Assembly (NCBI GenBank): GCA_001799845.1
Contig: MGUG01000027.1
Span: 1-64,000, forward strand
From: Elusimicrobia bacterium GWC2_64_44
GTDB lineage: Bacteria; Elusimicrobiota; Elusimicrobia; Elusimicrobiales; UBA9959
Reading direction: 5' to 3'
DNA length: 64,000 nt
Shown here: one piece after another, positions 1,800-46,032 of the stretch
How the letters are laid out: every line of letters starts with the position of its first letter
How positions within the stretch are numbered: position 1 is the first letter of the stretch
Notes under the pieces: generated by a model
Told to the model about the DNA's origin: nothing
The model's input: only the letters and a program-made list of their open reading frames with translations
Databases searched by the model: none
Made by a program: the position numbers and the translations under genes

Positions 1800-3200
1800 A
1801 TGAGGAAACCTCCTGCCAAGCCCGCATATTTTAATTTCCGCCGCCTGCGCGGCGGCGTGCTCGCGGTCGGCGACCTGGGCGGCTGGGCGCTGCTCACGCC
1901 CGCCGAGTTCAAGGCTTTCGCCGCGGGGCGCCTGAAGCCCGGGCGCGCGCTCGAAAAGCTGGAGGGGGCCGGCCTGATAGCCTCCCGGCTGGATTTCGAC
2001 TCGCTCTCGGCCGCCTGGCGCGACTCCAACGAATACCTGGAGCGCGGCCCGGGCCTGCATATTCTGGTCCTGACGCAGAACTGCAATCACGGCTGCCTGT
2101 ACTGCCAGGCCGGGTCCGGCCGCGGCGCCGGCATGAGCGCCGCCACGGCCCGCCGGGCCGTGGACCTGGCCTTCTCCTCCCCGGTGACCGGGCTGACCCT
2201 GGAGTTCCAGGGCGGCGAGCCGCTGCTGAACTGGCCGGCGCTGAAAGAGGCCGCCCTCTACGCGCGGAAAAAATCGGCGAAAACCGGCAAAGAGCTCGCG
2301 CTCGCGCTGGTCTCCAATTTCAGCCTGATGGACAAGGCGAAGGCCGCCTTCATCCTGGAGAACGACATCTCCGTCTGCACCTCCCTCGACGGCCCGGCTG
2401 ACCTGCATAACGCCAACCGGCCCTTTTCCGGAGGCAACTCCCACGCCCTCGCCGAGAAGTGGATAAAGTTTTTCCAGGAGCGCCGCGGCGTGCAGCCGCC
2501 CGGCGGTCCCAGCGCCCTGCTGACGGTCACGCGCGCGTCGCTGCCCCGCGCCCGGGAGATAGTGGACGAGTACGCCCGCCTGAAACTGCCGTACGTCTTC
2601 CTGCGGCCGCTCACGCCTATGGGCCAGGCCCCGAAGCGCTGGGGCGAGATCGGCTATTCCCCCGAGGAGTTCCTGGCGTTCTACCGCGCCGCCCTCGACC
2701 GGGTGCTGGAGCTGAACCGCCGCGGTACACCCATAAAAGAGAAGACGGCCTTCCTGCTGGTTAAAAAAATACTGGGCACCCAGGACAATAAGTACGTGGA
2801 CCTGCGCTGCCCGTGCGGCGCCGGGCTGGGCCAGCTGGCCTACGACGTGGACGGCGGCGTCTACACCTGCGACGAGGGCCGCATGCTGGCGCGGGACGGG
2901 GACTTCTCTTTCCGGCTGGGCGGCGTGCGGGACTCCTACGCCAAACTGATAAGTTCGGCCCCGGTCCGGGCCTGCGCCCTGGCCTCCAGCCTGGACCTGC
3001 AGCCGGCCTGCGCCCGCTGCGCGTATAAGGCCTGGTGCGGGGTCTGCCCGGCCTATAACGCCGCCGCGCAGGGCGGTTTCTGGGGCGACATGCCCGCCAA
3101 CGCGCGCTGCCGGGTCCTGCTGGGGGTGTTCGACCACATCTTCGCCAGCCTTACAGATAAAGACAATTTAAAAATATTTGAAGGGTGGCTTGAAAATTAG
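1800..3200 (+). CDS. hxsB: His-Xaa-Ser system radical SAM maturase HxsB
   Basis: A 466-residue radical SAM/SPASM enzyme. An N-terminal domain (about 10-85, beginning FNFRRLRGGVLAVGDLGG) resembles the opening of known HxsB proteins. The CxxxCxxC cluster is Cys95/Cys99/Cys102, followed by EFQGGEPLLNW. C-terminal auxiliary-cluster cysteines are in LRCPCGAGLG, YTCDEGR and CARCAYKAWCGVCP. HxsB enzymes are thought to modify the His-Xaa-Ser repeat protein HxsA, and an hxsA-like gene lies 1.2 kb downstream on the same strand, which supports the call. The ATG at 1800 is chosen over upstream in-frame starts because conserved sequence begins there and a TATAAT lies just upstream. No HxsC or HxsD is visible. 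Confidence 0.8.
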   Translation: MRKPPAKPAYFNFRRLRGGVLAVGDLGGWALLTPAEFKAFAAGRLKPGRALEKLEGAGLIASRLDFDSLSAAWRDSNEYLERGPGLHILVLTQNCNHGCLYCQAGSGRGAGMSAATARRAVDLAFSSPVTGLTLEFQGGEPLLNWPALKEAALYARKKSAKTGKELALALVSNFSLMDKAKAAFILENDISVCTSLDGPADLHNANRPFSGGNSHALAEKWIKFFQERRGVQPPGGPSALLTVTRASLPRAREIVDEYARLKLPYVFLRPLTPMGQAPKRWGEIGYSPEEFLAFYRAALDRVLELNRRGTPIKEKTAFLLVKKILGTQDNKYVDLRCPCGAGLGQLAYDVDGGVYTCDEGRMLARDGDFSFRLGGVRDSYAKLISSAPVRACALASSLDLQPACARCAYKAWCGVCPAYNAAAQGGFWGDMPANARCRVLLGVFDHIFASLTDKDNLKIFEGWLEN

Positions 3201-3273
3201 CGTTTTATGTGGTAAAACATAGGGGCAGGTTTCCCGGCCGGCGCCGGAAAGCCGGGGGGGCTATTGTTACGCT

Positions 3274-4371
3274 ATGAAGAAAATCATAATCGGAGTAGTA
3301 GTGCTGCTGGCGGCCGCCTTGATCGGCCTGAAATTTTTCGCTTCTAAGGAGCAGGCGGCGGTGCAGCGCCCCGCCTCCCAGGACGGCCAGCAGGAACAGC
3401 AGGGTGTGGCCCTGCCCAGCGCGGCCAAGGATTACTCGGCCGTGGCCACCGAGTCCGTCTACGTGCCTACCCAGGCCATGGGCAGCTACGAGATGTTCAC
3501 GCTGCCCGCGCCCGTCATGGCCCTGAAAGGCGCCTGCGAGGGCGGCTCTCCGAAGGAGATAATGGAAGCCCACGGCAAGACCTGGGGCCACTTCACGGGC
3601 CGCCGCGCGGCTTTCGATACGAACCAGAAGCAGGAGATCTACACCTACATCGCCAGCTACTACTCCTGCCTCGCCCTGGCCCGCCAGGATATAACCACCT
3701 GCAACGAACTGCCCGGCGAAACCGAAGCCAACGGCTTCAAGATCACGCTCGACGACAGCCCGCTCGGCCTCTGCCGCGGCATGGCCGCCGACATGCTGTT
3801 CAGGGCCTACGTGGCCGGCAAGGCCAAGGACCAGCAGAACTGCCTGGCCTACATCGGCCAGTGGGAACCGACCGACCAGGGCAGGGTCTCGGCGCCCGAG
3901 TTCTGCGAGGCCGCCGCCAAGGGCCCGGAGAAATTCACCGAGTACGGCAGGGAAAAGATGCCGCAGTATTTCGGCATCGGCGAGAAGATGATGGCTTTTA
4001 CCAAAAAGGTCTGCGGTTCGGACCCGGTCTGCCTCGCCAATAACGGCCTCTGGGAGGGCATCAGGACCGGCTCTCCGGGCAAGTGCCCGCCCGCCAAGGT
4101 GCCGCACTGCACGGCGCTGGCCGAGAAGAACCAGGCGCCCTGCGTTGATATAATCATGGAGATGTCGCGCCGGTACTGCGTGCATTACAAGGCCCTCGTG
4201 AAGGGCTCCGGCGGCTACATGGGCATGACGCCCGACGAAGTGAAGGAAGACCTGCGCCTCAAGGCCCAGAAAAAGGCCGAAGAGGAAAAGACGCGCAAAG
4301 AGCTGGACGTCATCACCAAGCAGACCAACGAGCGGGTGCGCAAGCTGATAGGGAAACAGGGCGGAGAATAA
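3274..4371 (+). CDS. Exported Cys-rich protein of unknown function, between hxsB and hxsA
   Basis: 365 residues. An N-terminal hydrophobic segment (about 4-21, IIIGVVVLLAAALIGL) looks like an uncleaved membrane anchor, placing the rest outside the cytoplasmic membrane. The outer part holds twelve cysteines, an even number as expected for disulfides. A charged, probably coiled-coil tail (from about 310) is rich in Lys and Glu. I recognise no family. It starts 73 bp after hxsB and ends 10 bp before hxsA, so it is probably cotranscribed with them. It could act on, bind or export the His-Xaa-Ser product; that is inference from position only. The ATG follows TATTGT by six bases. Confidence 0.8.
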   Translation: MKKIIIGVVVLLAAALIGLKFFASKEQAAVQRPASQDGQQEQQGVALPSAAKDYSAVATESVYVPTQAMGSYEMFTLPAPVMALKGACEGGSPKEIMEAHGKTWGHFTGRRAAFDTNQKQEIYTYIASYYSCLALARQDITTCNELPGETEANGFKITLDDSPLGLCRGMAADMLFRAYVAGKAKDQQNCLAYIGQWEPTDQGRVSAPEFCEAAAKGPEKFTEYGREKMPQYFGIGEKMMAFTKKVCGSDPVCLANNGLWEGIRTGSPGKCPPAKVPHCTALAEKNQAPCVDIIMEMSRRYCVHYKALVKGSGGYMGMTPDEVKEDLRLKAQKKAEEEKTRKELDVITKQTNERVRKLIGKQGGE

Positions 4372-4381
4372 AGGCGGCTAT

Positions 4382-4690
4382 ATGAAAAACAAAACCTCTA
4401 AACTTAAAAAGAACATCCGCATGTTCCTCAGCAGCGAGGAAGGCAAGATGCTCGACGCCGATATCGTTAAGACCGGCCTGGCCCTGGGCATCCTGGGCAC
4501 CGCGCTGGTGGAGCAGGCCTCGGCGCAGATCCACTCCAACTACTTCAATACGACGCAGCACGTCAGCCACCAGAGCCACGGCTCGCACGGCAGCCACGGC
4601 AGCCACGGCTCCCACGCGTCGCACGGCTCGCACGGCAGCCACGGTTCCCACGGGTCTCACGGGTCCCACGGCAGCCACGGCTCGTATTGA
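4382..4690 (+). CDS. hxsA: His-Xaa-Ser repeat protein HxsA-like precursor
   Basis: A 102-residue precursor. The basic N-terminus (MKNKTSKLKKN) is followed by FLSSEEGKMLDADIVKTG and a short hydrophobic stretch (LALGILGTALVEQASA). The C-terminal half is an unbroken run of 14 His-x-Ser triplets (one HVS, one HQS, one HAS, eleven HGS), ending in Tyr. This is the layout of HxsA, the proposed target of the His-Xaa-Ser maturases, and hxsB is two genes upstream. The rest of the protein is too short for an enzyme. The start has no strong ribosome-binding site (AAAGGCGGCTAT precedes ATG). The modification itself is unknown. Confidence 0.85.
   Translation: MKNKTSKLKKNIRMFLSSEEGKMLDADIVKTGLALGILGTALVEQASAQIHSNYFNTTQHVSHQSHGSHGSHGSHGSHASHGSHGSHGSHGSHGSHGSHGSY
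4559..4684 (+). repeat. Tandem 9-bp coding repeat encoding His-x-Ser triplets
   Basis: 126 bases encode 14 consecutive His-x-Ser triplets. Histidine is always CAC, but the Gly and Ser codons vary freely (GGC/GGT/GGG; AGC/TCG/TCC/TCT). The protein pattern is therefore kept by selection rather than by recent DNA slippage. Confidence 0.95.
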
Positions 4691-4705
4691 CGGAAACCGC
4701 CGCAG

Positions 4706-5827
4706 GTGCCCGGGCGACGCGTTTTTTACCTTCATAATCCCTCGGGGGATATCGGGCACGCCGTACACCTGTTGCGGCTGCTTGCGGCTCAACCCCGCGG
4801 CGGCCGCAATTTAATTTTCCTCAGGGCTCCCTCTTCTTACCCGCACAAACTTTTCGAGAACCACGGCGAAGTCCGGCAACTGCCGGCCGCGCCGTCCGCG
4901 GCCTCCGGCCGCGCTCTGGCCGCGGCGCTGCGGCGCTTCCGCCCGGAACTGCTGGTGACGGAATTCTTCCCTTTCGGCCGGCGGGAGTGCCGGCCGGAGC
5001 TCGCCCCGGCGCTGGCCGAGGCCCGGCGGCTCGGCGCTAAGATCGCGGCCAGCGTGCCTATGCCGTATTTCTCCGCTCCGGAAAAAGAACTGCCGGAGCT
5101 GCTCGCCGACTGCGCGCTCTACGACCGGCTCCTGGTGCACAGCCCCGCCGGCGGCGACCTGCCCTGCATGGCCGCGGCGGTGGCCCTGGAGCGCCGCGTT
5201 TCCCGCGCCGCCTTCCTCTCCGTCTTCGGCGCGCTGCGCCGCAAGCTGGTCTTCACCGGCTGGCTGCTGCCGCCGGCCGCGAGGGCCGCTAAAAAAGAAA
5301 AATTCATCCTTGTAACGCGGGGCGGCGGGTCCACCTCGGACCGGCTGGTAGAGGCGGCCATCGGCGCGGCGCCGCTCGTCGGCCGCCCTTTCCTGATAGT
5401 CGCAGGCACCTCCACCCCGCCTGCCAAGCTCGCGCGCTTCCGCCGCCTGGCCGCGGCCTGCGGCGGCGACGCCGCCGTACTGTTCGGTTATACGGACCTG
5501 CCGGCGCTGATGGCGAAGGCGGCCGCCTGCGTCTCCACCGCCGGCGGCTCGGTCTACGAGCTCCTCGCCCAGCGCTCCAAAATGGTGCTCGCGCCCTATT
5601 GCGGGGCCCGGGGCCGGGAGCACGCCGACCAGCTGGCCCGGGCCTGGCTGGCCCGCGACCTGGCCGGGGCCGGCCTGCTGCTGCCGGCCGATCTCACGCC
5701 GGGCAAAGTGGCCGCGGCCGTGCGTCGCGCCCTCGCCCGCCCGGCCTGGCGCTCGGCCCGGGTTAAGCCCGCCTGGTTTTGCGGGGCCGCGCGCTCGGCC
5801 CGCGAGCTGGAGGCGCTGTGCCGCTGA
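4706..5827 (+). CDS. MurG-like glycosyltransferase (GT28 C-terminal fold)
   Basis: 373 residues with a two-domain GT-B look. The N-terminal half has VFYLHNPSGDIGHAVHLLRL (compare the glycine loop of GT28 enzymes). The C-terminal half has VTRGGGSTSDRLVEAA and STAGGSVYELLAQRSKMVL, then GREHADQLARA, which matches the nucleotide-sugar-binding region of MurG-type enzymes. It probably transfers a sugar from a nucleotide sugar at the inner face of the membrane. The start is a GTG, 15 bp after hxsA; the stop overlaps the next gene. The acceptor is unknown. An undecaprenyl-linked glycan is possible, and so is glycosylation of the His-Xaa-Ser product. Confidence 0.65.
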   Translation: MPGRRVFYLHNPSGDIGHAVHLLRLLAAQPRGGRNLIFLRAPSSYPHKLFENHGEVRQLPAAPSAASGRALAAALRRFRPELLVTEFFPFGRRECRPELAPALAEARRLGAKIAASVPMPYFSAPEKELPELLADCALYDRLLVHSPAGGDLPCMAAAVALERRVSRAAFLSVFGALRRKLVFTGWLLPPAARAAKKEKFILVTRGGGSTSDRLVEAAIGAAPLVGRPFLIVAGTSTPPAKLARFRRLAAACGGDAAVLFGYTDLPALMAKAAACVSTAGGSVYELLAQRSKMVLAPYCGARGREHADQLARAWLARDLAGAGLLLPADLTPGKVAAAVRRALARPAWRSARVKPAWFCGAARSARELEALCR

Positions 5828-6777
5828 CGGTAATGGTGGAGCTGACCTGGCGCTGCGGTGCCGGCTGTTCCTTCTGCTACCTCGGGCGCACCGGCCGCCT
5901 GAACGCGCGCGGCCCCGAGATGAGCGCGGCCGACCTGAAAGCCTTCATGCGCCGCTTCCCGGCCGGGACGCGCTTCTATTTCAGCGGCGGCGAGCCCTTC
6001 GCGCGGAAAGATATTTTAGAAATACTCGCTTACGCCTCGGCGCGGGGCCTCAACTGGGGCGTGAACACCAACGGCCTGCAGCTGCCGCTTCCTAAAATTA
6101 AAAAGCTGATGGCGCTGCGCCCGGCCTACGTGATCTTCTCGCTGCACGGCCCGGCGGCTGCGCACGACCGGCTGCTGGGCGTTAAGGGCGCGCATGAAAA
6201 AGTCCTGGCGGCTATAAAATCCGCCGCGCGCCTGAAGCGGCCCGGCACGGAAATAATGACCAACTGCGTGATCAGCCCCGCCAACGCCGCGCTGTTGCCC
6301 GCCGTTTACCTGGAGGCCGCCAGGGCCGGCGCCGACAGGGCGGTCTTCGAACATTTGCAGTTCCTGAAAGAAGGCGAGGCTCCGGGGCTTACGGGCGCGG
6401 AGCTGCTGACCCCGCGGCTGCGCCCCCGCCGCCTGGCCGTTGCGGCCCTTGAGCGCTCTTTAGGCAGGATCAAGGCCCTGCGCGGGGCGTTCAAGACACA
6501 TTTCGAACTGCGGCCCGACTTCGGCCGGGCGGAGCTAGAGCGCTATTACAACGGTACCCCGCGCGTCTCCGGAGGCTGCCCGCTGCTGTCTACCATCAAC
6601 GTCGAGCCCGACGGCCGCCTCAGGACCTGCGTGCTCTACTCCGCGCCGGCGGGAGGCACGGTGCGGGCCTTCGACCGGGCGGGCCTGCTGCGGGCCAAGC
6701 GGCGGCTGGTGAAGGGAGGGCTGCCGCGCGGCTGCGCGCGCTGCTGCCACAGGTTCTCTATCGAGCGGGTTTTTTGA
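5818..6777 (+). CDS. Radical SAM protein with a C-terminal Cys cluster
   Basis: About 320 residues. LTWRCGAGCSFCYLG gives the CxxxCxxC cluster (Cys13/Cys17/Cys20) and FYFSGGEPFARKD is the GGEP motif. The C-terminal part has GGCPLLSTINVEPDGRLRTC and a final CARCCHRF, suggesting a short SPASM/twitch auxiliary cluster. The GTG at 5818 is chosen because GGAGG lies four bases before it and the frame starts inside the preceding gene's end, implying coupled translation. It does not resemble HxsC closely enough to name. The stop region overlaps the convergent gene at 6758 by 20 bp. Confidence 0.8.
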   Translation: MPLTVMVELTWRCGAGCSFCYLGRTGRLNARGPEMSAADLKAFMRRFPAGTRFYFSGGEPFARKDILEILAYASARGLNWGVNTNGLQLPLPKIKKLMALRPAYVIFSLHGPAAAHDRLLGVKGAHEKVLAAIKSAARLKRPGTEIMTNCVISPANAALLPAVYLEAARAGADRAVFEHLQFLKEGEAPGLTGAELLTPRLRPRRLAVAALERSLGRIKALRGAFKTHFELRPDFGRAELERYYNGTPRVSGGCPLLSTINVEPDGRLRTCVLYSAPAGGTVRAFDRAGLLRAKRRLVKGGLPRGCARCCHRFSIERVF

Positions 6778-7465
6778 TCAGTTCGGAGCAGAGGGCGAAG
6801 CGGGCCAGGCCGCGGCCGGCGAGGTCCTTCAGGAAAGCGGCGTAAGCGGAAAAAACCCTGAAATTTTCGGCGTTGAGGTCGGCGTGGTGGAAATAGATCC
6901 CCGCCGGCCCTTTTTCTTTTATGGCCGCGAGAGTGCGAGCTTTGAGCAGGTTCAGGTCCAGCGGGCGCGGCCTGAGCCGCAGGTCGTACTCGTTCACCGT
7001 CACCCGCGTGGGCAGGAAAGCCAGGCCGCGGGGCAGGCGCTCGGGCCGGCGGCTGGCGGAGATGGCCAGGAAACCCAGCGCGCGCAGCGCCCGAAGGGTG
7101 TCCGAATTATAGGCGTGGAACGGCGGGACGAAGACTGGCGGCACGGGGCCAAGCAGGCGGGCCAGCAGTTTTTTGCCTTCGGCCAGGTCGGCCAGTTGTT
7201 CCCCGTAGACGCGCGAGGGGCCGAACTCGTGCTTTAAGTACCTGTTGCCGGAGTGCTCGGAGTGGGAGAGGCCGTGCTGCAGCGCCTCTACCCCGGCGCC
7301 CAGCGCCTTCTGCCGCCGGAAAAAGGCCGCCAGCGCCTTGCCGGCCCCGGCCGGGATGACGGCGCAGGAGAGCGGCAGGCCCAGGCCGGCCAGCAGGCCG
7401 AAGACGCGCAGGAAAGCCCGGTCGGGCCGGACCACGTCGTCGCAGCGCAGGAAAAAAGTTTTCAT
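6758..7465 (-). CDS. Polysaccharide deacetylase-like (NodB-fold) protein
   Basis: 235 residues beginning MKTFFLRCDDVVRPD. The early Asp-Asp, the QHGLSHSEHS histidine pair and the PPFHAYN segment fit the metal site and substrate loop of the carbohydrate esterase 4/NodB fold, as does the late FHHADLNAEN. Sequence outside these motifs is divergent. The ATG at 7463-7465 overlaps the upstream stop (ATGA), so it is preferred over an in-frame GTG at 7477. It is the last gene of a seven-gene minus-strand run. The role would be removal of an N-acetyl group from a sugar. There is no signal peptide, so it may act on a cytoplasmic or lipid-linked precursor. Confidence 0.6.
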   Translation of the reverse strand: MKTFFLRCDDVVRPDRAFLRVFGLLAGLGLPLSCAVIPAGAGKALAAFFRRQKALGAGVEALQHGLSHSEHSGNRYLKHEFGPSRVYGEQLADLAEGKKLLARLLGPVPPVFVPPFHAYNSDTLRALRALGFLAISASRRPERLPRGLAFLPTRVTVNEYDLRLRPRPLDLNLLKARTLAAIKEKGPAGIYFHHADLNAENFRVFSAYAAFLKDLAGRGLARFALCSELIKKPAR

Positions 7466-8760
7466 TTTACGATCCACGGGTCTGGGCCGAAAACACTGCC
7501 GGCCTCTCCGGCCTGGAAGCGGCTGCCGCCCAGGCAGACCTGGAGCATGGGGCAGGCACGGCAGCGCTTGGGCAGCCAGCCGGTACCGCGCATTCTTTTC
7601 AGGAAGGGGTGGGCCCAGGCCCGCGCCAGCCCTGCGCCCAGGAATTCACGCGAGGGGTAGCTGGGCTTCCATGATCCGGCCGCGTCAAGCACCAGCCGCG
7701 TCCAGCCGTCGTCGAAGCGCGCGCCCAGCGCATAAGGCCGGGCGGCGGCCTGCAGCGCGCAGAAGGGCAAGGGATTAGCCAGCACCGCGCGGACCCCGGC
7801 CCGCGGCTGCGCGGCGACCGCCTTCGCCAGCGCCAGGAACTCGCGCCTGGTGAGATCGAACTCCGGCGCCTCTTCCAGCGCCTCCGCCGCCATCATCGGG
7901 CGGTACAATTCCCACAGGTCGAAGCCGAGCGCGCTTACGGCCTCCCGCCAGCGCGTAAAATTTTTTATAGCCTGCCTGGAGACCACCGTGCCGGCCCGCA
8001 CCACTTTGACGCCGGCGGCGCGCAGGCGACCAACGGCCGCGGCCTTGGCCCCTAGCGTCCCGGCCCGGCCGGAGCCGGCGGCGTGGGAAGCCTCGTCGGG
8101 CCCCGGCAGCGAGATCAAGGCGTTGTCCACCAGGCCGGCCAGGGCCCGCGCCCGCGCCGGGGTGAGGAGCACGGCGTTGGTGTTGAGCAGCGTGTAGAAG
8201 CCGAGTCTCCTCGCCAGGCGCAGCAGGCGCTCCAGACCCGCGTAGAGCAGGGGTTCTCCGCCGGTGAAGCGGGCGCTTTTTACGCCCAGCGCGGCGGCTT
8301 CGCGCAGCGCTTTTTCGGCTGTCTTGAGCGGCAGCTCTTCGCCGCTTCGCCCGAAGCAGGCGCGGCAGGCCAGGTTGCACTTCTTGTTCAGCTCCAGCAC
8401 TATCTCCGCCGGGGCCGGCAGTACCGGCTTAATAAGCCCGCGGTCCGCCCAGGCCGCGTTGACCCCGGGGCAGCGCCCTGCGAGGGCGCAGCGCCCGCAG
8501 GCCTTGATCCGGCGGAAAGGCCCGCGCTCGCCCAGCGGCCAGGTGAAATGTTCGAAAGCGTCGGGCATCAGGCAGGCCGGCGCGCCCGTTATGGAAACCA
8601 GGAAATTTTCTTCCAGCGCGGCCAGCAGCGGGTAAAGCGCGGTCCTGGCTTTCGCAGCGTTCGTGCCGGGCGCGAAGGCGGCGCTGAACTCGCGCTCGCG
8701 GCGGCGCAGGTCCAGCTCCAGGCCGCTTTCGGCGGCCGCCGCCAGCAGGCGCTCAAGCAT
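7462..8760 (-). CDS. Radical SAM protein with N-terminal extension and SPASM-like tail
   Basis: 432 residues. Residues 1-110 form a separate extension with a cysteine set (CGRCALAGRCPG, Cys88/91/97). The radical SAM core follows: NKKCNLACRACFG (Cys128/132/135), then ARFTGGEPLLYAG. The tail RCRACPMLQVCLGG fits an auxiliary iron-sulfur site. It starts by ATG inside the end of the preceding gene (8 bp overlap) and ends with an ATGA junction. The substrate is unknown. The N-terminal cysteines could bind another cluster or zinc. It lies in the operon with a second radical SAM enzyme and two deacetylase-like genes. Confidence 0.8.
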   Translation of the reverse strand: MLERLLAAAAESGLELDLRRREREFSAAFAPGTNAAKARTALYPLLAALEENFLVSITGAPACLMPDAFEHFTWPLGERGPFRRIKACGRCALAGRCPGVNAAWADRGLIKPVLPAPAEIVLELNKKCNLACRACFGRSGEELPLKTAEKALREAAALGVKSARFTGGEPLLYAGLERLLRLARRLGFYTLLNTNAVLLTPARARALAGLVDNALISLPGPDEASHAAGSGRAGTLGAKAAAVGRLRAAGVKVVRAGTVVSRQAIKNFTRWREAVSALGFDLWELYRPMMAAEALEEAPEFDLTRREFLALAKAVAAQPRAGVRAVLANPLPFCALQAAARPYALGARFDDGWTRLVLDAAGSWKPSYPSREFLGAGLARAWAHPFLKRMRGTGWLPKRCRACPMLQVCLGGSRFQAGEAGSVFGPDPWIVK

Positions 8761-9898
8761 TCAGCCTCCAGTAATAGGCCCCGTTCCTGAAAGAGCGGGC
8801 GGCGCGGCCTTTCTTCACCAGCGCCTGGCCGGTCACCAGCACTGAATTGCCGTCGGAGCAGTCGTAGCAGAGCGGGACCTTCCTGGCGGCCGCCAGGATC
8901 TGCGCGGTGGAGAGCTCTTTCTTGCCGCGCAGCGTCTCGAGGAAGCACTTTTCATTGTCCGTCAGCAGCGGGCCAGGCGCGCTCTTCGCCGGGGCGGGTT
9001 TGGCGGTCACGGGCCTGAAGCCGGCCCAGCCGAAGAGGCGCAAATAATTGCGGTCCACGCCGCGGCAGGCTTTCCTGAAATAGCAGCGCGCGCAGGGCGG
9101 GCCCTGCTCGCGGTCCGCCGCCGTGCAGGCGTCGAGGTCCCGCGCCTCTCCGGAGGCGGCTACCACCACCGTGTTGAATTTGTAGAGCCCGGCTGCGCTG
9201 TTCTCGAAGCCCGGCAGCAGGCAGGGCGGGACGTTGAGCGCCTTTACCTCGCGGCCAAGCCCCGCCTTGTCCGCCGCGCGCAGGGCCTTCGCTATAAAAG
9301 GCGCGGCCTGCGGCAGGCTGACGCGCAGCCGGCCCGCGCGGGCCATCGCCCCGGTGTGGATAGGATAGATCAGCACGAAATTCGCGACGCCCCTGCCCAT
9401 GAAGAATTCGAGCGTTTTGGGCAGGGCGCGGTAATTGGCGCGGGTTACGAGCAGGTTCACGCCCGCGGCGGTCTTCAGGCGCAGCATGTTGTCGAGCCCG
9501 GCCAGGCTTTTTTTGAAAGCCCCGGTTTTGCCAACCAGCCTGTCGTGAAGCCGGGGGGTATGGCCGGCGAAGGTGAACTTGCAGACGGTAAGGCCGGAGC
9601 GCACCAGCCGCGCGGCCAGGGCGGCGTCGGCCAGGCGCATCCCGTTGGTCTGCAGGCGCACGGCTTTGAACCCGACGCGCCGCGCGGCCTTCACCAGCGG
9701 CGCGAGGTCGCGGCGCAGCAGCGCCTCCCCGCCGGAGAAGCCCAGCCGCGTGAAGCCGGCTTTCTTCGCCTCGTAGATGCGGCGCACGGCGTCGGCCGGC
9801 CGCAGCACCGCGCCCGGGTCGAAATCCGCCTGCGAGCAGAAGCCGCAGCGCAGGTCGCAGGCGTGGTTCAAAATAATTTCGCAGCAGTCGCGCTTCAT
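8753..9898 (-). CDS. Radical SAM protein with a C-terminal winged-helix-like domain
   Basis: 381 residues. ILNHACDLRCGFCSQ places the cluster at Cys14/18/21, followed by LGFSGGEALLRRD. A middle Cys group (DACTAADREQGPPCARCYFRKAC, split over residues about 255-280) suggests an auxiliary cluster. After an Ala/Pro linker, the last 70 residues (LLTDNEKCFLETLRGKKELS to the end) have the helix-helix-wing spacing of winged-helix proteins and include CYDCSDGN. This tail is unusual for a radical SAM enzyme; it may bind a peptide or leader, or DNA. ATG start; GGEP is GGEA here. Confidence 0.75.
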   Translation of the reverse strand: MKRDCCEIILNHACDLRCGFCSQADFDPGAVLRPADAVRRIYEAKKAGFTRLGFSGGEALLRRDLAPLVKAARRVGFKAVRLQTNGMRLADAALAARLVRSGLTVCKFTFAGHTPRLHDRLVGKTGAFKKSLAGLDNMLRLKTAAGVNLLVTRANYRALPKTLEFFMGRGVANFVLIYPIHTGAMARAGRLRVSLPQAAPFIAKALRAADKAGLGREVKALNVPPCLLPGFENSAAGLYKFNTVVVAASGEARDLDACTAADREQGPPCARCYFRKACRGVDRNYLRLFGWAGFRPVTAKPAPAKSAPGPLLTDNEKCFLETLRGKKELSTAQILAAARKVPLCYDCSDGNSVLVTGQALVKKGRAARSFRNGAYYWRLNA

Positions 9899-37458: not shown

Positions 37459-37465
37459 AGGTTTA

Positions 37466-37474: not shown

Positions 37475-37499
37475 AAATATTTCCCGGCGCCCGCGCCGG
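37475..37499 (-). terminator. Possible terminator after the FemAB-like gene
   Basis: On the minus strand, just past the stop at 37505, CCGGCG-CGGG-CGCCGG is followed by GAAATATTTTG. The stem is short, and the U-rich tail also overlaps the next promoter, so this is tentative. Confidence 0.35.
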
Positions 37500-37504
37500 C
37501 GCGG

Positions 37505-38548: not shown

Positions 38549-39531
38549 AGTTTCTCCCCCAGGGAAGCGGCGAGGCCGTCCAGGGTGGAGACGGCCGGCT
38601 TCCAGCCCAGGGCCCGCAGCCCCTCGCAGCTGTGCGACCAGGAAGAGCAGGCTTCTTTGAACCGGGCGGGGTCCGCGCCCATCACGCCGGGCAGGTACAG
38701 CCCCGCCAGCCCGAGCGCGGCGTCGAGCACGGCGGAGACGGCCCGCAGCGCGGGGACGGGCAGGCTGACCAGGCGCGGCCGGCGGCCCAGGGCCGCGGCG
38801 AGGGTCAGCAGCAGGTCCCGCATGGAGAGGGAGCCTTCGCTGACGTTCAGGGCGGCTCCGGAAGGCGCCTTGCCGGCCGCCAGCAGCGCCCCGTCGAGGA
38901 AATTTTCCACGTAGCAGATGGAGAAAATGTTGGCGGCGTCGCCGGGCACCAGCACCTTGTTCCTGGCCGCCGCGTCGAACAAAGGCTCCCAGGCTTTGGC
39001 GCCGGGGCCGTAGACCATGCACGGGCGCAGCACCAAATGGTCCAGGCCCGCGCGCGCGGCCTCGGCCTTGAAGAGCCGCTCTCCGGCCAGTTTGGACTTG
39101 CCGTACCAGGTCAGCGGCGCCGGGGGCGCATCGTCGCGCAGGTTCTCGCCCGGCCCCAGCGCGGCGATGCTGCTGAAGTGTATGAAGCGCTTTACCCCCG
39201 CGCGCGCGGCCGCGGCCGCGAGGCGCGCCGGGAGGTCCTCGTTGACGGCCTTGAAGCGGGCGAGTAGCGCGCGGCGGCGGACCAGGAGGCCAGTGGGCCG
39301 TACCAGCGCGGCCAGATGCCAGACGCGGGCCGCGCCGGAGAGCGCCGCCTCGCCGACTGCGGGCTCCAGCAGGTCGCCCCGGAAAATTTCCACGCCGGGC
39401 AGCTCCAGCCGCGAGGCGTCGGCGCCGGGCCGTACCAGGCAGCGCACGGGCAGGCCGGCCGCGGTCAGGCGCTTTACCAGCGCCTGGCCCAGGAAGCCGG
39501 CGGCCCCGGTCACGAGTTGCAGTTCAGCCAT
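38545..39531 (-). CDS. NAD-dependent epimerase/dehydratase
   Basis: 328 residues, extended SDR. LVTGAAGFLGQALVKRLTAA binds NAD; VWHLAALVRPTG and the catalytic Tyr-x3-Lys in LTWYGKSKLAGERL follow, then LRPCMVYGPGAKAW. It resembles the epimerase at 14370 in order and wording but is clearly diverged (YGKSK against YGWSK). The ATG lies within the last 8 bp of the preceding B12 radical SAM gene. Likely a sugar or polyketide-like alcohol oxidoreductase. Confidence 0.8.
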   Translation of the reverse strand: MAELQLVTGAAGFLGQALVKRLTAAGLPVRCLVRPGADASRLELPGVEIFRGDLLEPAVGEAALSGAARVWHLAALVRPTGLLVRRRALLARFKAVNEDLPARLAAAAARAGVKRFIHFSSIAALGPGENLRDDAPPAPLTWYGKSKLAGERLFKAEAARAGLDHLVLRPCMVYGPGAKAWEPLFDAAARNKVLVPGDAANIFSICYVENFLDGALLAAGKAPSGAALNVSEGSLSMRDLLLTLAAALGRRPRLVSLPVPALRAVSAVLDAALGLAGLYLPGVMGADPARFKEACSSWSHSCEGLRALGWKPAVSTLDGLAASLGEKL

Positions 39532-40963
39532 GGCCTTTCAGTTTAGCAAAGATAAAATGCTTGTACAGGCGCAGAAAGCGGCCCGTGTGGAAGTCCCGGC
39601 GCGGCCGGCTCAGCAGGCGGGACAGCGCCCGCAGGCCCAGGCCGCCGGCCAGGCGGAAGAGCCCGGGGCGCGCGGCGGCGAACCGGCGCAGCGGGGCGGG
39701 CAGGCGCGGCAGCAGCGTCAGCAGGGAGAACCAGGCGCGCTGCCTGCCGGGCGGCAGCGGCGAGTGGCCTGAAGGCCGCATCAGCCCTCCGGGCGCGTCG
39801 GCCCGGCCGGCGCAGCGGGCGGCCAGCGGGGTGCCGGGATAGAGCCGCAGGAAAAAGACTTCGTTGTGGTCCGGGGTGTGCTCCGCGTAGAACGCGGCCA
39901 GCGCGGCCAGCTCGCCCTCGCTCTCGTCGGGCAGGTCCAGGATATTGTCGCATGTGACGTAGATCCCTGCCGCCCGCAGGGCCTTTATGGCGGCGGCTAT
40001 GTCGGCGTTGGCGGCGCGCCGGCCCAGCAGTTCAGCGCGCTTGTCCTCGTCGAAACGCTGCACGCCGAGCTGCACCTTGAAGCAGCCGGCGGCGGCCAGC
40101 GCGGGCGCGAGGGCGGCCAGGCGGGCGTCGGGGAAGACGAAGCAGGAAAAAGGCAGGCCGACGCGGGCTTTGTACAGCGGCAGGAACTTTTCCAGCCACC
40201 CGTAGTCGGAGTTGAAGACCTCGTCGGTGAAGTGCACGAAGCCGGGCGCGGCCGCCAGGCCCTCCAGCTCACCCAGCACGTTCTCGGCGCCGCGGCGGCG
40301 CAGGCAGGGCACGCCGGAGGCGCGGTAAAGCTCGCGGTACACGCTGTTGCAGCAGTAGGCGCAACTGTGCGGGCAGCCGCGGGAAGAGGACAGGAGGTAG
40401 CCGTCCGAGAAGACCGGCGCGGCCGCGGAAAAAAGCTCTTTGTCCGGGAGGGGCAGCGCGTCCAGGTCAGCCGGGGGGGCTGGCGGCGGGCCTTTGACCA
40501 CGGTCCCGCCCTTCTTGCCCCAGATGCCGGCCGGCAGCGGGCCGCCAGCGGTCAGGTGGGCGGCCAGCGCCGGCAGCGCCAGGTCGCCCTCGCCCAGGCA
40601 GACGAAATCCGCGGCTTGGTCGGCCAGCACCTCGTCGGGGACGCTGGAGGGATGGATGCCGCCGAAAACGGTCCTCGCGCCGGTGCGGGCTTTAAGTTCG
40701 GCGGCCAGCGCCCTCGCCCAGGGCCAGGTGTCGGTGAAGACCGAGAAAGCGAGCAGGTCCGGCCTGAAAGCCTCCGCCTGGCGCAGCACGCGGCCGCGGA
40801 AGCTGAACAGGGAGGACAGCGCGGGCGAGCGCCAGAAGCCCGCCTCGTCGAAGAGACAGGGGTCTATGACGAGCGCGGTCTCGTGCCCGGCCCGCTTCAG
40901 CGCGGCCGAGAGATACTCGATGCCCAGGCTCTCGTAGCCGTTATGGACGAACAATATCCTCAC
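39524..40963 (-). CDS. B12-binding domain radical SAM protein (paralogue 5)
   Basis: 479 residues. The B12-like domain opens MRILFVHNGYESLGIEYLSA and has VFGGIHPSSVPDEVLA and VCLGEGDLAL. SRGCPHSCAYCCNSVYR gives Cys197/201/204 with an extra adjacent Cys. VQLGVQRFDEDKRAELLGR and DNILDLPDESEGE replace the usual GLPGE. The opening SLGIEYLSAALKRAGHETALV is close to the N-terminal half of the fusion at 27490, so these two share an origin. A basic, Ala/Leu-rich tail (from about 405) is also seen in that fusion's linker. ATG in an overlap with the flavoprotein stop. Confidence 0.85.
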   Translation of the reverse strand: MRILFVHNGYESLGIEYLSAALKRAGHETALVIDPCLFDEAGFWRSPALSSLFSFRGRVLRQAEAFRPDLLAFSVFTDTWPWARALAAELKARTGARTVFGGIHPSSVPDEVLADQAADFVCLGEGDLALPALAAHLTAGGPLPAGIWGKKGGTVVKGPPPAPPADLDALPLPDKELFSAAAPVFSDGYLLSSSRGCPHSCAYCCNSVYRELYRASGVPCLRRRGAENVLGELEGLAAAPGFVHFTDEVFNSDYGWLEKFLPLYKARVGLPFSCFVFPDARLAALAPALAAAGCFKVQLGVQRFDEDKRAELLGRRAANADIAAAIKALRAAGIYVTCDNILDLPDESEGELAALAAFYAEHTPDHNEVFFLRLYPGTPLAARCAGRADAPGGLMRPSGHSPLPPGRQRAWFSLLTLLPRLPAPLRRFAAARPGLFRLAGGLGLRALSRLLSRPRRDFHTGRFLRLYKHFIFAKLKGHG

Positions 40964-42282
40964 AAAGCTTTTTTAATTTTTTCGGCGGCGGCCCAGGCGT
41001 CCAGCAGGCATTCCTCGGTGTCCAGGTAGGCGTGCGCGCCGGTGCGGCCGCAGAGCTGCAGGTTGGGCAGCGCCGCCAGCTCTTTCTTTACCGCCGCCAG
41101 CGGGCCCTCGGACCCGGCGTAGAGCAGCGGGTAGGCGTGAGCCAGGCGCTCCACGGCGGCCGGGCCGGCCTCGAAGCCGCCGGCCAGCCGGCTGAAGGCC
41201 GGCGAGCCCAGCGCCCGGGCGAGCAGCTCGGCCTCCGTCAGCCGCCAGCAGGCGTCGCCTTCGTCGCAGAAGAACTCAAAGGTAACGGGCAGCCAGCCGC
41301 CGGGGGCCATCAGCGGGCTCCAGTTGGCCAGCTCGCAGAGGCGGGAGAATTCGGCGTCCTCGTCGGGAAAATAGACCCAGTGATGCGGCAGCGCCTTTTT
41401 GCGGCGCAGCGCCGCGAACAGCACCACCAGCGAGCGGTACTTGATCCCGGCGGCTAGACCCGGCGGGAAACCGGGAATGAGGCCGGCCAGGGCCGGCAGC
41501 GGTATGGTGGAAATTATGTGTTTGAAGGCGGCCGTCTTTTTTTCGCCGCCGCGGCTGAAGACCAGCGCGGCGGGCTTGCCGTCGCGGAACTTCAGTTCCA
41601 GCGGCTCGGCCCCGGTCAGCAATTCGGTATTCGGTCCGGCGGCGGCCAGCAGCGCGGCCGGCAGCTCGCCTATGCCGCGCTCCGGGTAGAGGAAGCGCGC
41701 GGCGTTCTCCTTTGAGGACAGCTTGCCGCCGAACAGCTCGAGCAGCAGCGTTTTGACGCTGAAGCCGCCCCCGATGCGGCGCTCGGCCCAGAGCGGCGAC
41801 AGCTCGTCGGTGGCGAGGCCCCAGACCTTTTTGGTGTAGTCCCGGAAATAGCGGTCGTGGACGCGGGGGCCCAGGCGGCCGTCCAGCCAGTCCTTCAGGG
41901 TGGCCGGCGGTTTGGCGCCGGAAACCTTGCGGCCTTTGGAGAAAAGCACCGGCGCGGCGTAAAGAACGCCGTTGAGGAAGGTGGGGGGATAATTGAGCAG
42001 GCGCCCGCCGGTGTAGATGGCGCTGGAGCGCTTCGGGCGCAGCAGCGGCCGCCCCGTGAGCAGCCGCTCGGTGTAGGCGCGGACTTCCGGCTTGGAGAAG
42101 TAAAGGCGGTGGCCGCCCAGGTCGAAGAGGAATTCCCCGGCGCGGGCCGTGCGCGACAGGCCGCCCGGCTCCGGCGCCTTTTCCAGGACGAGCGTGCGCA
42201 GGCCGGAGTCTTTCAGGGCTTCGGCCGCGGCCAGCCCGGTCAGCCCGCCGCCGAGCACCAGCACGTCGGTTTTCATTTCCAT
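40960..42282 (-). CDS. FAD-dependent oxidoreductase / UDP-galactopyranose mutase-like flavoprotein
   Basis: 440 residues. VLVLGGGLTGLAAAEAL and VLEKAPEPGGLSRTA bind FAD. FDLGGHRLYFSKPEVRAY, then the KVWGLATDELSPLWAERRI segment match flavoproteins related to UDP-galactopyranose mutase and protoporphyrinogen oxidase, often found in surface-polymer clusters. The C-terminus has LCGRTGAHAYLDTEECL, placing FAD's dinucleotide end. It may isomerise or desaturate a lipid-linked or nucleotide sugar. Two possible starts lie in frame (42282 and two codons later). The family is clear; the exact reaction is not. Confidence 0.75.
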   Translation of the reverse strand: MEMKTDVLVLGGGLTGLAAAEALKDSGLRTLVLEKAPEPGGLSRTARAGEFLFDLGGHRLYFSKPEVRAYTERLLTGRPLLRPKRSSAIYTGGRLLNYPPTFLNGVLYAAPVLFSKGRKVSGAKPPATLKDWLDGRLGPRVHDRYFRDYTKKVWGLATDELSPLWAERRIGGGFSVKTLLLELFGGKLSSKENAARFLYPERGIGELPAALLAAAGPNTELLTGAEPLELKFRDGKPAALVFSRGGEKKTAAFKHIISTIPLPALAGLIPGFPPGLAAGIKYRSLVVLFAALRRKKALPHHWVYFPDEDAEFSRLCELANWSPLMAPGGWLPVTFEFFCDEGDACWRLTEAELLARALGSPAFSRLAGGFEAGPAAVERLAHAYPLLYAGSEGPLAAVKKELAALPNLQLCGRTGAHAYLDTEECLLDAWAAAEKIKKAL

Positions 42283-42294
42283 CGCGGGTATATT

Positions 42295-43470
42295 CTACAA
42301 CTTTGGGGCGGTACGGGGGCGCGGCCTCAGGCCCCGCAGCGTGTCCCAGGCGCGCCCGCCGCCCAGTACGGCCAGCAGCAGCGCCAGCGGCGCGAAAGGC
42401 GTGAAGAAGCGGCCGGCCCAGAAGACGTGCGAGGTGAAGGCGTAGGGCAGCGTCAGCAGCAGCAGCCAGAGCGGCAGGAGCCGCAGGCCCGGAGTCAGCG
42501 CGGCCAGCGCGGCGCCCAGCAGGTAGAGGCCGAGCAGCAGCACGGCCGCCCGCCCCGGCAGGCCCAGCGAAAAATAGACCTTCCAGTAGAAGTCCCAGAG
42601 GCCGCTCCGCAGCCCTTTGGCAGAATCGCGCGCCAGTTCCCAGGGGGTGTGGTTCTCGAAGAGCCATTGCCGCGTGGTCAGCCGCTGCGCGTAGGGATCC
42701 TTCTGCCATTCATAGACGGTGGCCGGAAAGCCGGGGCGCCCCAGGTTCTCCATGTTGGAGATGTAGCTGGCGTGCAGGCTGACGGAATACAGCGGATCGC
42801 CGTGGCGGGCCTTGTTGTTCTGCAGATGCGGGGCGAGCAGCAGCAGCGCCGGCGCCAAAGCCAGCAGCGGGCGCAGGCCGCGGGCGCGCCAGGCGGCGGC
42901 GGCCAGCAGCAGGAAGCCGGACAGGACATAATTCACCCGGGTCAGCGCCAGCAGCGCCAGCGCGGCGGCGGGCAGGCGCCAGGCCTTTGGGCCTGCCGGG
43001 GCGTGCAGGGCGTTGAGCAGCAGCAGCAGGGCGAAGGTCTCCTGGAGGTTGCGCAGGCCTAAAGAGTCGGACTGGACCTGCGCCGGCAGGAAGGCGTACA
43101 GCGCGGCCGCGGCCCAGGCGCGCCCGGCGCCCAGGAAGCGGGCGGCCAGGGCGAAGAACAGGAAGAACGACGGGAGGAACCAGAGGCTGCCGGCCAGCCG
43201 GATGCCGGCCGCGGAGCCGGCCCCCAGTTTGCCCAGCAGCCACAGCCACCAGACGAAGAGCGGCTCGCGCGGCGAGGTGTCGAAGGGGTGCGTGAAGGCC
43301 AGCGAGGAGGGGAGGAAAGAGCCGAGGTCCGGGTGAGGGGCCGCGTCCCTGGTCCAGAGAATATAGCCGATACGCGCCGCCAGGCCCAGCAGGGACAAGG
43401 CGATAAGCGCGGCGCGTTCGCGGGATATGCCGAAAAAAAATTCCTTTACTCGGGATCCTGGGAAAGTCAT
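42295..43470 (-). CDS. Polytopic membrane glycosyltransferase, GT39/PMT-like
   Basis: 391 residues with about nine hydrophobic helices. The first outer loop has ILWTRDAAPHPDLGSFLPSS, an acidic loop where GT-C enzymes keep the catalytic Asp. Then SPREPLFVWWLWLLGK and LRNLQETFALLLLLNAL follow, in the usual PMT/ArnT-like order. It should use a polyprenyl-phosphate sugar on the outer membrane face. It lies 25 bp after the hybrid kinase gene and 12 bp before the flavoprotein, on the same strand. Substrate unknown. Confidence 0.7.
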   Translation of the reverse strand: MTFPGSRVKEFFFGISRERAALIALSLLGLAARIGYILWTRDAAPHPDLGSFLPSSLAFTHPFDTSPREPLFVWWLWLLGKLGAGSAAGIRLAGSLWFLPSFFLFFALAARFLGAGRAWAAAALYAFLPAQVQSDSLGLRNLQETFALLLLLNALHAPAGPKAWRLPAAALALLALTRVNYVLSGFLLLAAAAWRARGLRPLLALAPALLLLAPHLQNNKARHGDPLYSVSLHASYISNMENLGRPGFPATVYEWQKDPYAQRLTTRQWLFENHTPWELARDSAKGLRSGLWDFYWKVYFSLGLPGRAAVLLLGLYLLGAALAALTPGLRLLPLWLLLLTLPYAFTSHVFWAGRFFTPFAPLALLLAVLGGGRAWDTLRGLRPRPRTAPKL

Positions 43471-43495
43471 GTCTCGAGGGCGGTCCGGGCCCGGC

Positions 43496-45016: not shown

Positions 45017-45133
45017 ATCTCCTTGCGCGAGGCCCGGCAGTGCGGGCTGCGGCCAAGGTCTAATGCTATATAATCCGCGGCCGGCCTACAAGCGGCTTCA
45101 GGAGGGAGCGGGCCCCTGGCATTTTCAATTTGA

Positions 45134-45139
45134 TAGAAT
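45134..45139 (+). promoter_or_regulatory. -10 element before the radical SAM gene at 45148
   Basis: TAGAAT ends eight bases before ATG 45148, with no Shine-Dalgarno, in a gene-free stretch of 131 bp. A second TATAAT-like sequence lies at about 45067-45072. A leaderless transcript is likely. Confidence 0.45.
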
Positions 45140-45147
45140 GGTTCCGC

Positions 45148-46032
45148 ATGCCCGATATCCCCGTCTGGAACAAGTGCGACAACAAGTGCGTGATGTGCGC
45201 CAATACGGCCGCCTTCTGCCTGAATACCTCGCGGGATTACAGCCTCCTGAAGCAGGCCGCGCGGCTGGAGCGCCACCTGCGCGGCGGCGCGGCCTACAAG
45301 AAGAACGCGCGCACCGCCGGGGCCTGGAACCTGACCGGCGGCGAGCCCACGCTGAACCCGGAGTTCCTGAAGGCCGTCGCTCATTTCCGCAGGCGGCTGA
45401 AGGGCGCGGAACTGCTGCTGCTTTCCAACGGGCGCCGCTTCGCGGATCCCGCTTTCGCCGCCGCCTTCGCGGCCGCGGCGCGCCCGCCATTCACGCTGGG
45501 CGTCTCCATCCACGGCCCGGACGCCGCCGCCCACGACCGGGTGGCCGGAGTCAAAGGCGCGTTCCGCCAGACTTTGCGCGGCCTTAAGAATCTGAGCGCC
45601 CTGCCCGGCGCCCCGGCGCTGGAGATCAGGGTGATACTCCATAAACTGAATTACCGCCGCCTTGGCGCCACGCTCGGCCTGCTGAAGCGGGAGCTGCCCG
45701 GCTGCCGCCTGGTGGTCATGCATTACGAAGCGGAGGGCCGGGGGGCGCGCAACGAGGCGAAGCTGGCCGTGAAATTATCGGCTACGGCCGCCGCGGTGAA
45801 CCGCTGCGCGGCCCGCCTGGCCGGCTTTCAGGCGGCCGCGCTCTACCATTTCCCGCTTTGCCTGCTGCGGCCTGAGCTGCGCGGGCTTGCCCGCGTCAGC
45901 CTGCCGCCCGAGGACCGGGCTTACCCTGCGCCCTGCCGGAACTGCGCCGCCCGCGGGGTCTGCGTGGGCCTGATGCGGCCCTACCTGCGCCGCTTCGGGG
46001 CCGGGGAACTGCGGCCCCTGCCGAAAGATTAG
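45148..46032 (+). CDS. Radical SAM protein
   Basis: 294 residues. VWNKCDNKCVMCANTAAFC gives CxxxCxxC at Cys10/14/17 with an extra Cys. WNLTGGEPTLNPEF and LSNGRRFADPAF follow, then VSIHGPDAAAHDRVAG. A C-terminal CRNCAARGVCVGLM could bind an auxiliary cluster. An in-frame TTG lies six codons upstream (45130), but the ATG at 45148 is preferred because TAGAAT sits directly before it. The gene stands alone between two regulator loci. It is one of the shorter radical SAM proteins here, with no B12 domain. Confidence 0.8.
   Translation: MPDIPVWNKCDNKCVMCANTAAFCLNTSRDYSLLKQAARLERHLRGGAAYKKNARTAGAWNLTGGEPTLNPEFLKAVAHFRRRLKGAELLLLSNGRRFADPAFAAAFAAAARPPFTLGVSIHGPDAAAHDRVAGVKGAFRQTLRGLKNLSALPGAPALEIRVILHKLNYRRLGATLGLLKRELPGCRLVVMHYEAEGRGARNEAKLAVKLSATAAAVNRCAARLAGFQAAALYHFPLCLLRPELRGLARVSLPPEDRAYPAPCRNCAARGVCVGLMRPYLRRFGAGELRPLPKD

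Follow-up and report, generated by a model that had tools for sequence, protein, structure and literature searches.

Extent and density of the radical-SAM island

What might a bacterium make with 18 radical-SAM genes packed into about 44 kb? The question is raised by positions 1800-46032 of the window, the 64,000-nt stretch of Elusimicrobia bacterium GWC2_64_44 analyzed here, in which an earlier note had counted 18 such genes with 19 radical-SAM domains. Pfam PF04055 scores above its cut-off in exactly the same 18 genes, one of which (27490-30045) holds two domains, and the CxxxCxxC motifs are intact in 19 out of 19 domains. The B12-binding domain PF02310, previously described as a B12-like domain in six modules, is over its cut-off in six genes (16363, 17775, 19157, 21584, 27490, and 39524). 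Codon-scored prediction gives 36 genes between 1800 and 46032, 18 of them radical SAM, and we count 13 same-strand 4-bp overlaps, in agreement with the overlapping operons noted before. The operons of the island lie on both strands.

The whole genome has 68 PF04055 matches; under an even spread, 0.97 domains are expected per 44.2 kb, vs. 19 observed (Poisson P ~2e-18). Position 1800, taken earlier as the start of the cluster, is not its limit: Seven further domains are found across a contig break, on contig C41, which adjoins the window's start and also carries a second module of HxsB with HxsC- and HxsD-like genes. Combined, there are 26 domains in ~65 kb. Two paralogue groups account for 12 of the 19 radical-SAM domains of the window. 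The island genes are under purifying selection, with dN/dS of 0.09-0.27 for the 18 radical-SAM genes (compared with G028) and <0.4 for every island gene compared.

HXS and HxsC-like genes at the ends of the island

There is good support for placing the island in a His-Xaa-Ser (HXS) locus. In NCBIfam, HXS systems comprise HxsA/A2/A3/A4, HxsB, HxsC/C4, and HxsD, and are credited in PMC9062424 to Haft and Basu. The island begins with HxsB, a radical SAM/SPASM maturase (1800-3200, plus strand; the listed ORF starts at 1668), which scores 432.6 bits with TIGR03978 (cut-off 370; the second HxsB copy, 477 bits). Close by is a gene absent from the earlier gene list, the HxsA4 precursor (4382-4690, plus strand; NF038313 86.1 bits, cut-off 55). 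This peptide of 102 aa, conserved among relatives, combines a leader that is itself conserved with a hydrophobic stretch whose end is Ala-x-Ala and a tail of His-Gly-Ser repeats; it has 14 His-Xaa-Ser units in all and the C terminus HGSY. Since HxsA4 and HxsB both exceed curated cut-offs, the locus falls in a class already predicted in databases. Of the "undescribed biosynthetic system" proposed earlier, the dedicated biosynthetic locus is supported and the word "undescribed" is not.

Beside the peptide gene lies a gene for a predicted exported, membrane-anchored Cys-rich protein (3274-4371, plus strand) with 14 invariant Cys in a 20-row alignment; it is related to a counterpart adjoining the second HxsB, and a fold search with it gave no match at E <= 0.001. 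The island closes with an HxsC-like radical-SAM gene (45148-46032, plus strand), which at 151 bits is below the TIGR03977 cut-off of 267.9, as is the C41 copy (144.5 bits). HxsD was sought in the window's island and not found; HxsD-like proteins occur only on C41, both below cut-off (TIGR03976 19.1 of 50 bits, NF038315 22.4 of 41 bits).

HxsB clade and peptide C terminus covary. Among 31 peptides (that of G036 was filtered out, and those of G155, G157, G159, and G141 are not included), HxsB clade W, to which the copy at 1800-3200 belongs, adjoins HGSY peptides in 15 out of 15 cases, and the other clades (module 1 and T) adjoin RGGWC peptides in 12 out of 12. The other four peptides, three of the GQW type and one HGSY, go with another HxsB group.

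Radical-SAM and sugar-type genes between the core genes

The enzyme classes given below are inferred from homology. B12-binding radical-SAM genes, assigned by Pfam, lie at 16363-17778, 17775-19157, and 21584-22996 (plus strand) and at 39524-40963 (minus strand). Another, at 19157-20632 (plus strand), has as its closest solved structure the apramycin enzyme 6fd2 (E 1e-30). In 27490-30045 (plus strand) a B12-binding radical-SAM protein is fused to the second radical-SAM domain; the fusion corresponds to two genes in G019 (C7:29156-31662). A paralogue group with the motif CQCxCxxC comprises 20610-21590 (plus strand), 23132-24094 and 24091-25146 (minus strand), 32956-34713 (plus strand; fused to a methyltransferase), and a radical SAM/SPASM gene at 25155-26219 (minus strand). 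The closest solved structure to the last is cytosylglucuronate decarboxylase, and its near structures also include peptide- and lipid-acting enzymes. The others are a radical-SAM gene at 5818-6777 (plus strand; PF04055 8e-16), a PqqE-like gene by profile matches at 7462-8760 (minus strand), an HxsC4/HxsC-like gene at 8753-9898 (minus strand; NF038332 94.5 bits, below the cut-off of 500), a radical SAM/SPASM gene at 15371-16366 (plus strand; Pfam), and a DegT sugar-aminotransferase domain fused to a radical-SAM domain at 10668-12683 (minus strand), which is split into two genes in G030, G014, G025, G155, and others.

Many of the non-core genes resemble those of sugar chemistry. On the minus strand are a DUF2334, polysaccharide-deacetylase-like gene (6758-7465; PF10096 4e-9), a polysaccharide deacetylase with DUF3473 (9895-10671; PF01522, PF11959), a SAM-dependent methyltransferase (12680-13558; PF13489), a short-chain dehydrogenase (13555-14289; PF00106), a FemAB-like acyl/aminoacyl transferase (37505-38548; PF13480), an NAD-dependent epimerase/dehydratase (38545-39531; PF01370), and an FAD protein (40960-42282) whose best solved matches are UDP-galactopyranose mutases (E 6e-18; TIGR00031 25 bits, cut-off 304). 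The plus strand has a putative, weakly MurG-like glycosyltransferase (4772-5827; TIGR01133 20.7 bits, cut-off 250), for which a PDB search gave no match, an HpnA-like NAD-dependent epimerase/dehydratase (14385-15371; PF01370; TIGR03466 138 bits, cut-off 368), and an AMP-forming acyl/aryl ligase-like gene (30042-31319; PF00501; NF045666 77 bits, cut-off 300). A membrane protein (31316-32959, plus strand) has a GT-C-like predicted fold; its model, built from 8 rows at pLDDT 73, best matches DPY19, ALG9, PglB, AglB, and AftA (TM-score up to 0.52). No more than two of the matches reach E <= 0.001, the best being that to DPY19 (E 4.5e-4).

Three genes are accessory. The gene at 34797-35876 (plus strand), previously called chorismatase-like, encodes a Rid/L-PSP-domain protein only remotely of that kind; an FkbO/Hyg5 assignment fails at 23.1 bits with TIGR04444 (cut-off 325). 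It and a PD40-repeat protein with one CxxCH (35878-37458, minus strand) occur in three out of 18 sets of related loci. A PMT_2-like membrane protein below the Pfam cut-off (42295-43470, minus strand) is seen only in G028.

A U32-family Fe-S protein (26231-27424, minus strand; PF01136 2e-11), missing from the earlier list, shares its family with the oxidases UbiU/UbiV, RlhA, and TrhP, with 5d88 as its closest structure (1e-9). The U32 oxidase motif is given as CX6CX15CX3C (PMC11574389); it is absent here, and the protein has Cys at 180, 184, 212, and 216 plus a C-terminal group instead. This protein is possibly an O2-independent hydroxylase. In relatives, paired U32-like genes can be read from the sequence within the island.

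Distribution among relatives

The earlier note had set conserved synteny with a variable number of radical-SAM genes as a test of a dedicated system. At a single chromosomal site we find ten occupied loci, with 9-21 radical-SAM domains, and three empty ones, in support of such a system. This count excludes G033, whose left-flank match is only 33% identical, and includes G000 despite a left flank cut by the contig end; the block, whole or partial, also occurs in G006, G022, G001, G159, G017, G020, and G007, whose broken contigs keep them out of the count. Genes in fetched loci were called with a codon-scored ORF finder (with the gene-prediction model retrained for the lower-G+C G034, G035, and G036), and domains were counted with an HMM made from the window's 19. 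Occupied islands mostly have 18-19 domains, or 25-26 with the neighboring module. Gene order is preserved between species; scattered genes and inactivated motifs, which the earlier note gave as grounds for refutation, were not seen.

The left chromosomal flank consists of the N-terminal part of a carbamoyltransferase-like gene (3-380, minus strand), cut at the contig end and complete in G028 (C41:100442-101626), and a gene named from sequence as M20-peptidase-like (408-1643, minus strand; 99% identical in G028 and G009). The right flank carries poly-gamma-glutamate-hydrolase-like, amino-acid-kinase-like, and PALP genes (58367-61863, plus strand), and relatives share this flank.

The block recurs in two more genera, with a diverged part in a third. 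In eight out of 11 single-contig loci it lies between HxsB/HxsA4 and an HxsC-like gene; the loci of G009, G030, and G025 lack HxsC at their right end. In G155, of a different genus, HxsB, HxsA4, and an HxsC-like gene each occur once in the 80 kb retrieved and enclose most of the block. A search with the U32 protein alone found close copies in three out of 61 genomes (the window's included), and later searches with HxsB, HxsA4, and 27490 showed a wider spread: Full-length 27490 orthologues occur in 10 of 340 genomes of the phylum, in eight with an HxsA4 match on the same contig. Many HXS loci, among them those of G012, G015, and G016, lack the island, which the HXS core can therefore do without. 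Loci in other phyla share the SEEGK-type leader and HGS repeats. The 16 compared loci not labeled Elusimicrobiota have 1-9 radical-SAM matches each, and none of the non-core genes (B12, sugar-type, extra radical SAM) was found in them.

A proposed system and its alternatives

HXS is a known predicted class, for which the literature searched gave no product or function, and the island is a much enlarged variant: It has HxsA4 and HxsB with HxsC-like genes, the HxsD-like ones being on C41, and unlike the HXS loci compared it adds B12 enzymes, sugar-type enzymes, and many more radical-SAM domains. We lean toward a giant HXS RiPP cluster, in which the radical-SAM enzymes would modify the peptide and also build sugars that are attached to it. 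The scaffold would be the 102-aa HxsA4 peptide, whose repeat tail would be the cytoplasmic target of HxsB, HxsC, and HxsC-like enzymes. Radical-SAM enzymes of the B12 and CQCxCxxC kinds would work with the DegT, SDR, mutase-like, methyltransferase, U32, and deacetylase proteins to make uncommon sugars or acyl moieties independently of O2; FemAB and the MurG- and GT-C-like proteins may join these to the peptide around export. In favor of this reading are the HxsA4 and HxsB scores, the place of the block between HXS genes at one site, the shared contigs of 27490 orthologues and HxsA4 matches, the covariation of HxsB and peptide type, the intact motifs and low dN/dS, and the sugar-type nearest structures. 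Counting against it are the HxsC and HxsD matches below cut-off, the loci with no HxsC at the right end, the island-free HXS loci, the peptide- and lipid-acting enzymes near 25155, the few matches and pLDDT of the GT-C-like model, the missing U32 motif, and the operons on both strands.

More tentatively, the product might be a radical-built glycopeptide of a new class: a ribosomal His-Gly-Ser-repeat peptide with sugars made and remodeled without O2 by about 15-20 dedicated radical-SAM enzymes, whose genes lie between those of its maturases, the peptide being exported and displayed at the cell surface in Elusimicrobiota. We infer that all of the enzymes would serve one product, that it would be a glycopeptide, and that it would be at the surface. 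The heavily modified surface molecule proposed earlier fits the sugar-type enzymes; the likely ribosomal peptide scaffold went unseen in that proposal.

The site could instead house two systems: one for the HXS peptide, with HxsB, HxsA4, HxsC, and a small number of radical SAMs, and a separate pathway for a polysaccharide, a glycolipid, or an antibiotic-like small molecule that happens to lie between the genes of the first. The sugar-type enzymes do not need a peptide, and island-free HXS loci exist. FemAB and the deacetylase resemble genes of XrtA/PEP-CTERM exopolysaccharide loci, as does an asparagine-synthase-like gene read from the sequence of G019. We regard this as rather unlikely, since the block keeps its position between the core genes across three genera and is present or absent as a unit, and since peptide type tracks the HxsB clade that accompanies the island. 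An XrtA/PEP-CTERM locus as such is rejected: the FemAB-like protein reaches 101 of 260 bits with TIGR03019 and the DUF3473 deacetylase 169 of 276 with TIGR03006, with no exosortase among the window's Pfam matches. The aminoglycoside and deoxysugar enzymes AprD4, BlsE, and DesII are the nearest kin of 19157 and 25155 by solved structure; the island scores are, however, far below the NCBIfam cut-offs (AprD4 122 of 500, BlsE 48 of 400), and its radical SAMs are linked to a peptide gene.

It is improbable that HxsA4 is a carrier or a His-rich metal-binding helper from which the pathway's product is released: His-rich repeats would suit metal binding and the AMP-ligase lacks an evident carrier protein, but the signal-like hydrophobic stretch seems to fit export better than a cytoplasmic carrier. 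Groundwater Elusimicrobia reportedly have loci of nitrogenase paralogues and radical-SAM genes that make a tetrapyrrole cofactor. Despite the shared phylum, and nitrogenase-like genes in six of seven genomes searched, there is very little chance that the island is a variant of these, as Pfam finds no such genes in it and the genome's sole PF00148 match is on another contig (C19:40948-41958). Hardly credible is an accretion of decaying tandem duplicates without joint function; the large share of domains in two paralogue groups would suit it, but the intact motifs, low dN/dS, and conserved gene order do not.

With the enlarged HXS cluster as the preferred reading, the island is an enlarged HXS system in which 18-19 radical-SAM domains accompany a single short peptide, and it is conserved in at least three genera. 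Its B12 and CQCxCxxC enzymes form a set with candidate sugar substrates, and it is a possible case of glycopeptide biosynthesis independent of O2. The natural empty sites and smaller versions provide a genetic map for dissecting the fate of HXS peptides. More generally, HXS loci are radical-SAM hubs: The 79 best-scoring loci have a median of 6.2 radical-SAM domains per 20 kb around HxsB, vs. an average of 0.44 in the window's genome.

Radical SAM content and integrity of the island

The earlier note counted 19 radical SAM domains in 18 genes of the island at 1800-46032, six of them with a B12-like domain; Pfam bears out both the count and the six B12-binding domains. The island holds 19 of the 68 radical SAM domains in the genome (G000), 0.97 being expected in 44.2 kb. 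Two paralogue groups, the six B12 enzymes and six proteins with a CQCxCxxC motif, account for 12 of the 19. The CxxxCxxC motif is intact in every domain, and dN/dS of the radical SAM genes is 0.09-0.27 against the related genome G028 (18 genes) and 0.15-0.29 against G009 (17 genes, 45148 having no paired orthologue there). For all island genes compared, the ranges are 0.07-0.31 and 0.10-0.39, respectively.

His-Xaa-Ser genes frame the island

Between the first and second radical SAM genes lies a small gene that the earlier note missed (4382-4690). Its product, 102 aa long and containing 14 His-Xaa-Ser (HXS) units that overlap, passes the NCBIfam HxsA4 cut-off (86 bits vs. 55) and is the sole HxsA4 match in the genome. 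The first radical SAM gene (1800-3200) is HxsB (433 bits, cut-off 370), and the last (45148-46032) is HxsC-like at 151 bits, below the cut-off of 268; given these three positions, the block is therefore framed by HXS-system genes. HxsB and HxsC are called putative maturases in parts of PMC9062424, with credit to Haft and Basu. We consider it very probable that this is an HXS locus.

The end of contig C41 adjoins the start of the window's contig (C27) across a gap of ~265 bp, judged against G028, where the region is a single contig. C41 contributes seven further radical SAM domains (26 in ~65 kb for both contigs), a second HxsB (477 bits), an HxsC-like gene, an HxsC4-like gene, and two HxsD-like genes with weak matches. 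The compared stretch holds 26 domains in G028, G009, G019, and G030 and 25 in G013 and G026. Two proteins, read from sequence, recur beside HxsB: one with a TTYYPAPYGGY stretch (G000:C41:209256-210083; L032/L033) and an A24-peptidase-like protein (215225, C41); neither has a family match.

Conservation at one chromosomal site

Conserved synteny with a variable number of radical SAM genes, which the earlier note had named as support for a dedicated system, is what the related genomes show. Counting the window and those loci with both flanks (a carbamoyltransferase-like and a PGA-hydrolase-like gene) on one contig, we find ten occupied sites with the same flanks and 9-21 domains: 19 in G000, G028, G019, and G013; 18 in G009, G026, and G030; 21 in G014; 17 in G157; and nine in G025. 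Gene order in G028 is that of the window, mostly at ~90% amino-acid identity, as it is in G009 at ~60-90% with three genes missing. The site is empty in G015, G016, and G012 (194, 241, and 912 bp between the flanks), and HXS loci persist in these genomes, with 18 radical SAM domains on the G015 stretch, for example.

We compared the 36 predicted island genes with 18 related loci sets at ≥35% identity; because contig ends truncate some of these sets, the counts are lower bounds. Counterparts occur in at least 17 sets for 8753, 16 for 7462, 15 for 20610, 14 for 4772, 13 each for 27490, 39524, and 5818, two for 26231 (U32), and one for 42295, and in none of these partly truncated sets for 43496.

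In other genera, G155 has the order HxsD-HxsB-Cys-rich protein-HxsA4-block-HxsC, each HXS gene being single-copy in the 80 kb compared; G157 and G159 (one genus) carry the block at the same flanks as the window, and G141 a diverged part of it. The far-end HxsC-like gene is present in eight of 11 single-contig loci (G000, G028, G013, G019, G026, G014, G155, and G157) and missing from G009, G030, and G025. Only in G000 is HxsC separated from the right flank, by a series of genes (46194-57857) for response regulators, histidine kinases, a GspE/PilB-type ATPase, and a periplasmic binding protein; in G028, HxsC adjoins the flank.

Linkage and peptide types

Of 340 genomes of the phylum, 10 have a full-length orthologue of the double radical SAM gene 27490, on the same contig as an HxsA4 match in eight and on a separate contig in G006 and G022. 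HxsA4 itself exceeds its cut-off in 79 of the 340, and HXS is therefore far wider than the island. In the HxsB tree (75 rows), the window copy falls within a 14-row clade (support 100/100), which grows to 16 rows when two sisters are included (98/96); the sister group is the module-1 clade of 27 rows. Peptides nearest the window's clade end in HGSY (15/15), and those nearest the module-1 or T clades in RGGWC (12/12); of the four next to other HxsBs, three have a GQW end and one an HGSY end. The GQW type (L022:8898-9182, L109, L116) pairs with a separate HxsB group and is also found in other phyla. At G008:C70:60754-62735 (L077), a divergent HxsB is accompanied by a peptide that has 27 His-Xaa-Ser units and another leader; the contig also carries nitrogenase-like genes.

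Enzyme likenesses and predicted product

The nearest solved structures are apramycin oxidoreductase 6fd2 for 19157 (E 1e-30), cytosylglucuronate decarboxylase for 25155 (3e-10; then tetraether synthase, PqqE, SkfB, and DesII), the sugar aminotransferase WbpE for the DegT half of 10668 (2e-17), and UDP-galactopyranose mutases for 40960 (6e-18). For the predicted structure of 31316 (8-sequence model, pLDDT 73), the best match is the C-mannosyltransferase DPY19 (E 4.5e-4); ALG9, oligosaccharyltransferases, and AftA rank next, and all of these are GT-C enzymes. The FemAB and deacetylase proteins are XrtA-like, at scores under the cut-off. By sequence reading, relatives' islands also hold paired U32-like genes as well as one that is asparagine-synthase-like. 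According to part of PMC11574389, U32 oxidases carry out O2-independent hydroxylation; their motif is missing from the window's U32 protein (26231). At G022:C133:10933-14349 (L086), a U32-like protein is twice found paired with a small protein containing Cys, and such pairs take the place of the window's fused DegT-radical SAM gene in several relatives' islands.

In the account we grade most likely, HxsB, HxsC, and their relatives would modify the HxsA4 repeat tail, the remaining enzymes would build unusual sugar or acyl groups and join them to the peptide, and a hydrophobic, signal-like stretch ahead of the tail would direct the product outward. We lean toward the whole island serving one decorated peptide as its predicted product. 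Among the strongest objections are that no HxsD was found in the island, that its HxsC match is weak, and that HXS loci do without the island. Literature searches on HXS names, radical SAM with Elusimicrobia, and large radical SAM/RiPP clusters, run on a collection with few subscription journals, gave no entry describing the locus.

Comparison with other phyla

Among the best 80 HxsB matches (79 named loci), the surroundings hold a median of 6.2 radical SAM matches per 20 kb (range 0.9-14.9); the G000 genome average is 0.44. Within these 80, Schekmanbacteria, Azambacteria, and Moraniibacteriota loci have 8-9 matches within 14-21 kb, and their HGS-repeat peptides carry a leader of the SEEGK or SEEGN type; matches number only 2-5 in loci from Deltaproteobacteria, Omnitrophota, and Spirochaetes. 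None of 16 loci compared from this set showed B12 or sugar-type genes of the island. Elsewhere in G000 are a further cluster of four radical SAM domains (C6:7879-17384; L036) and a nitrogenase-like (PF00148) gene (C19:40948-41958).
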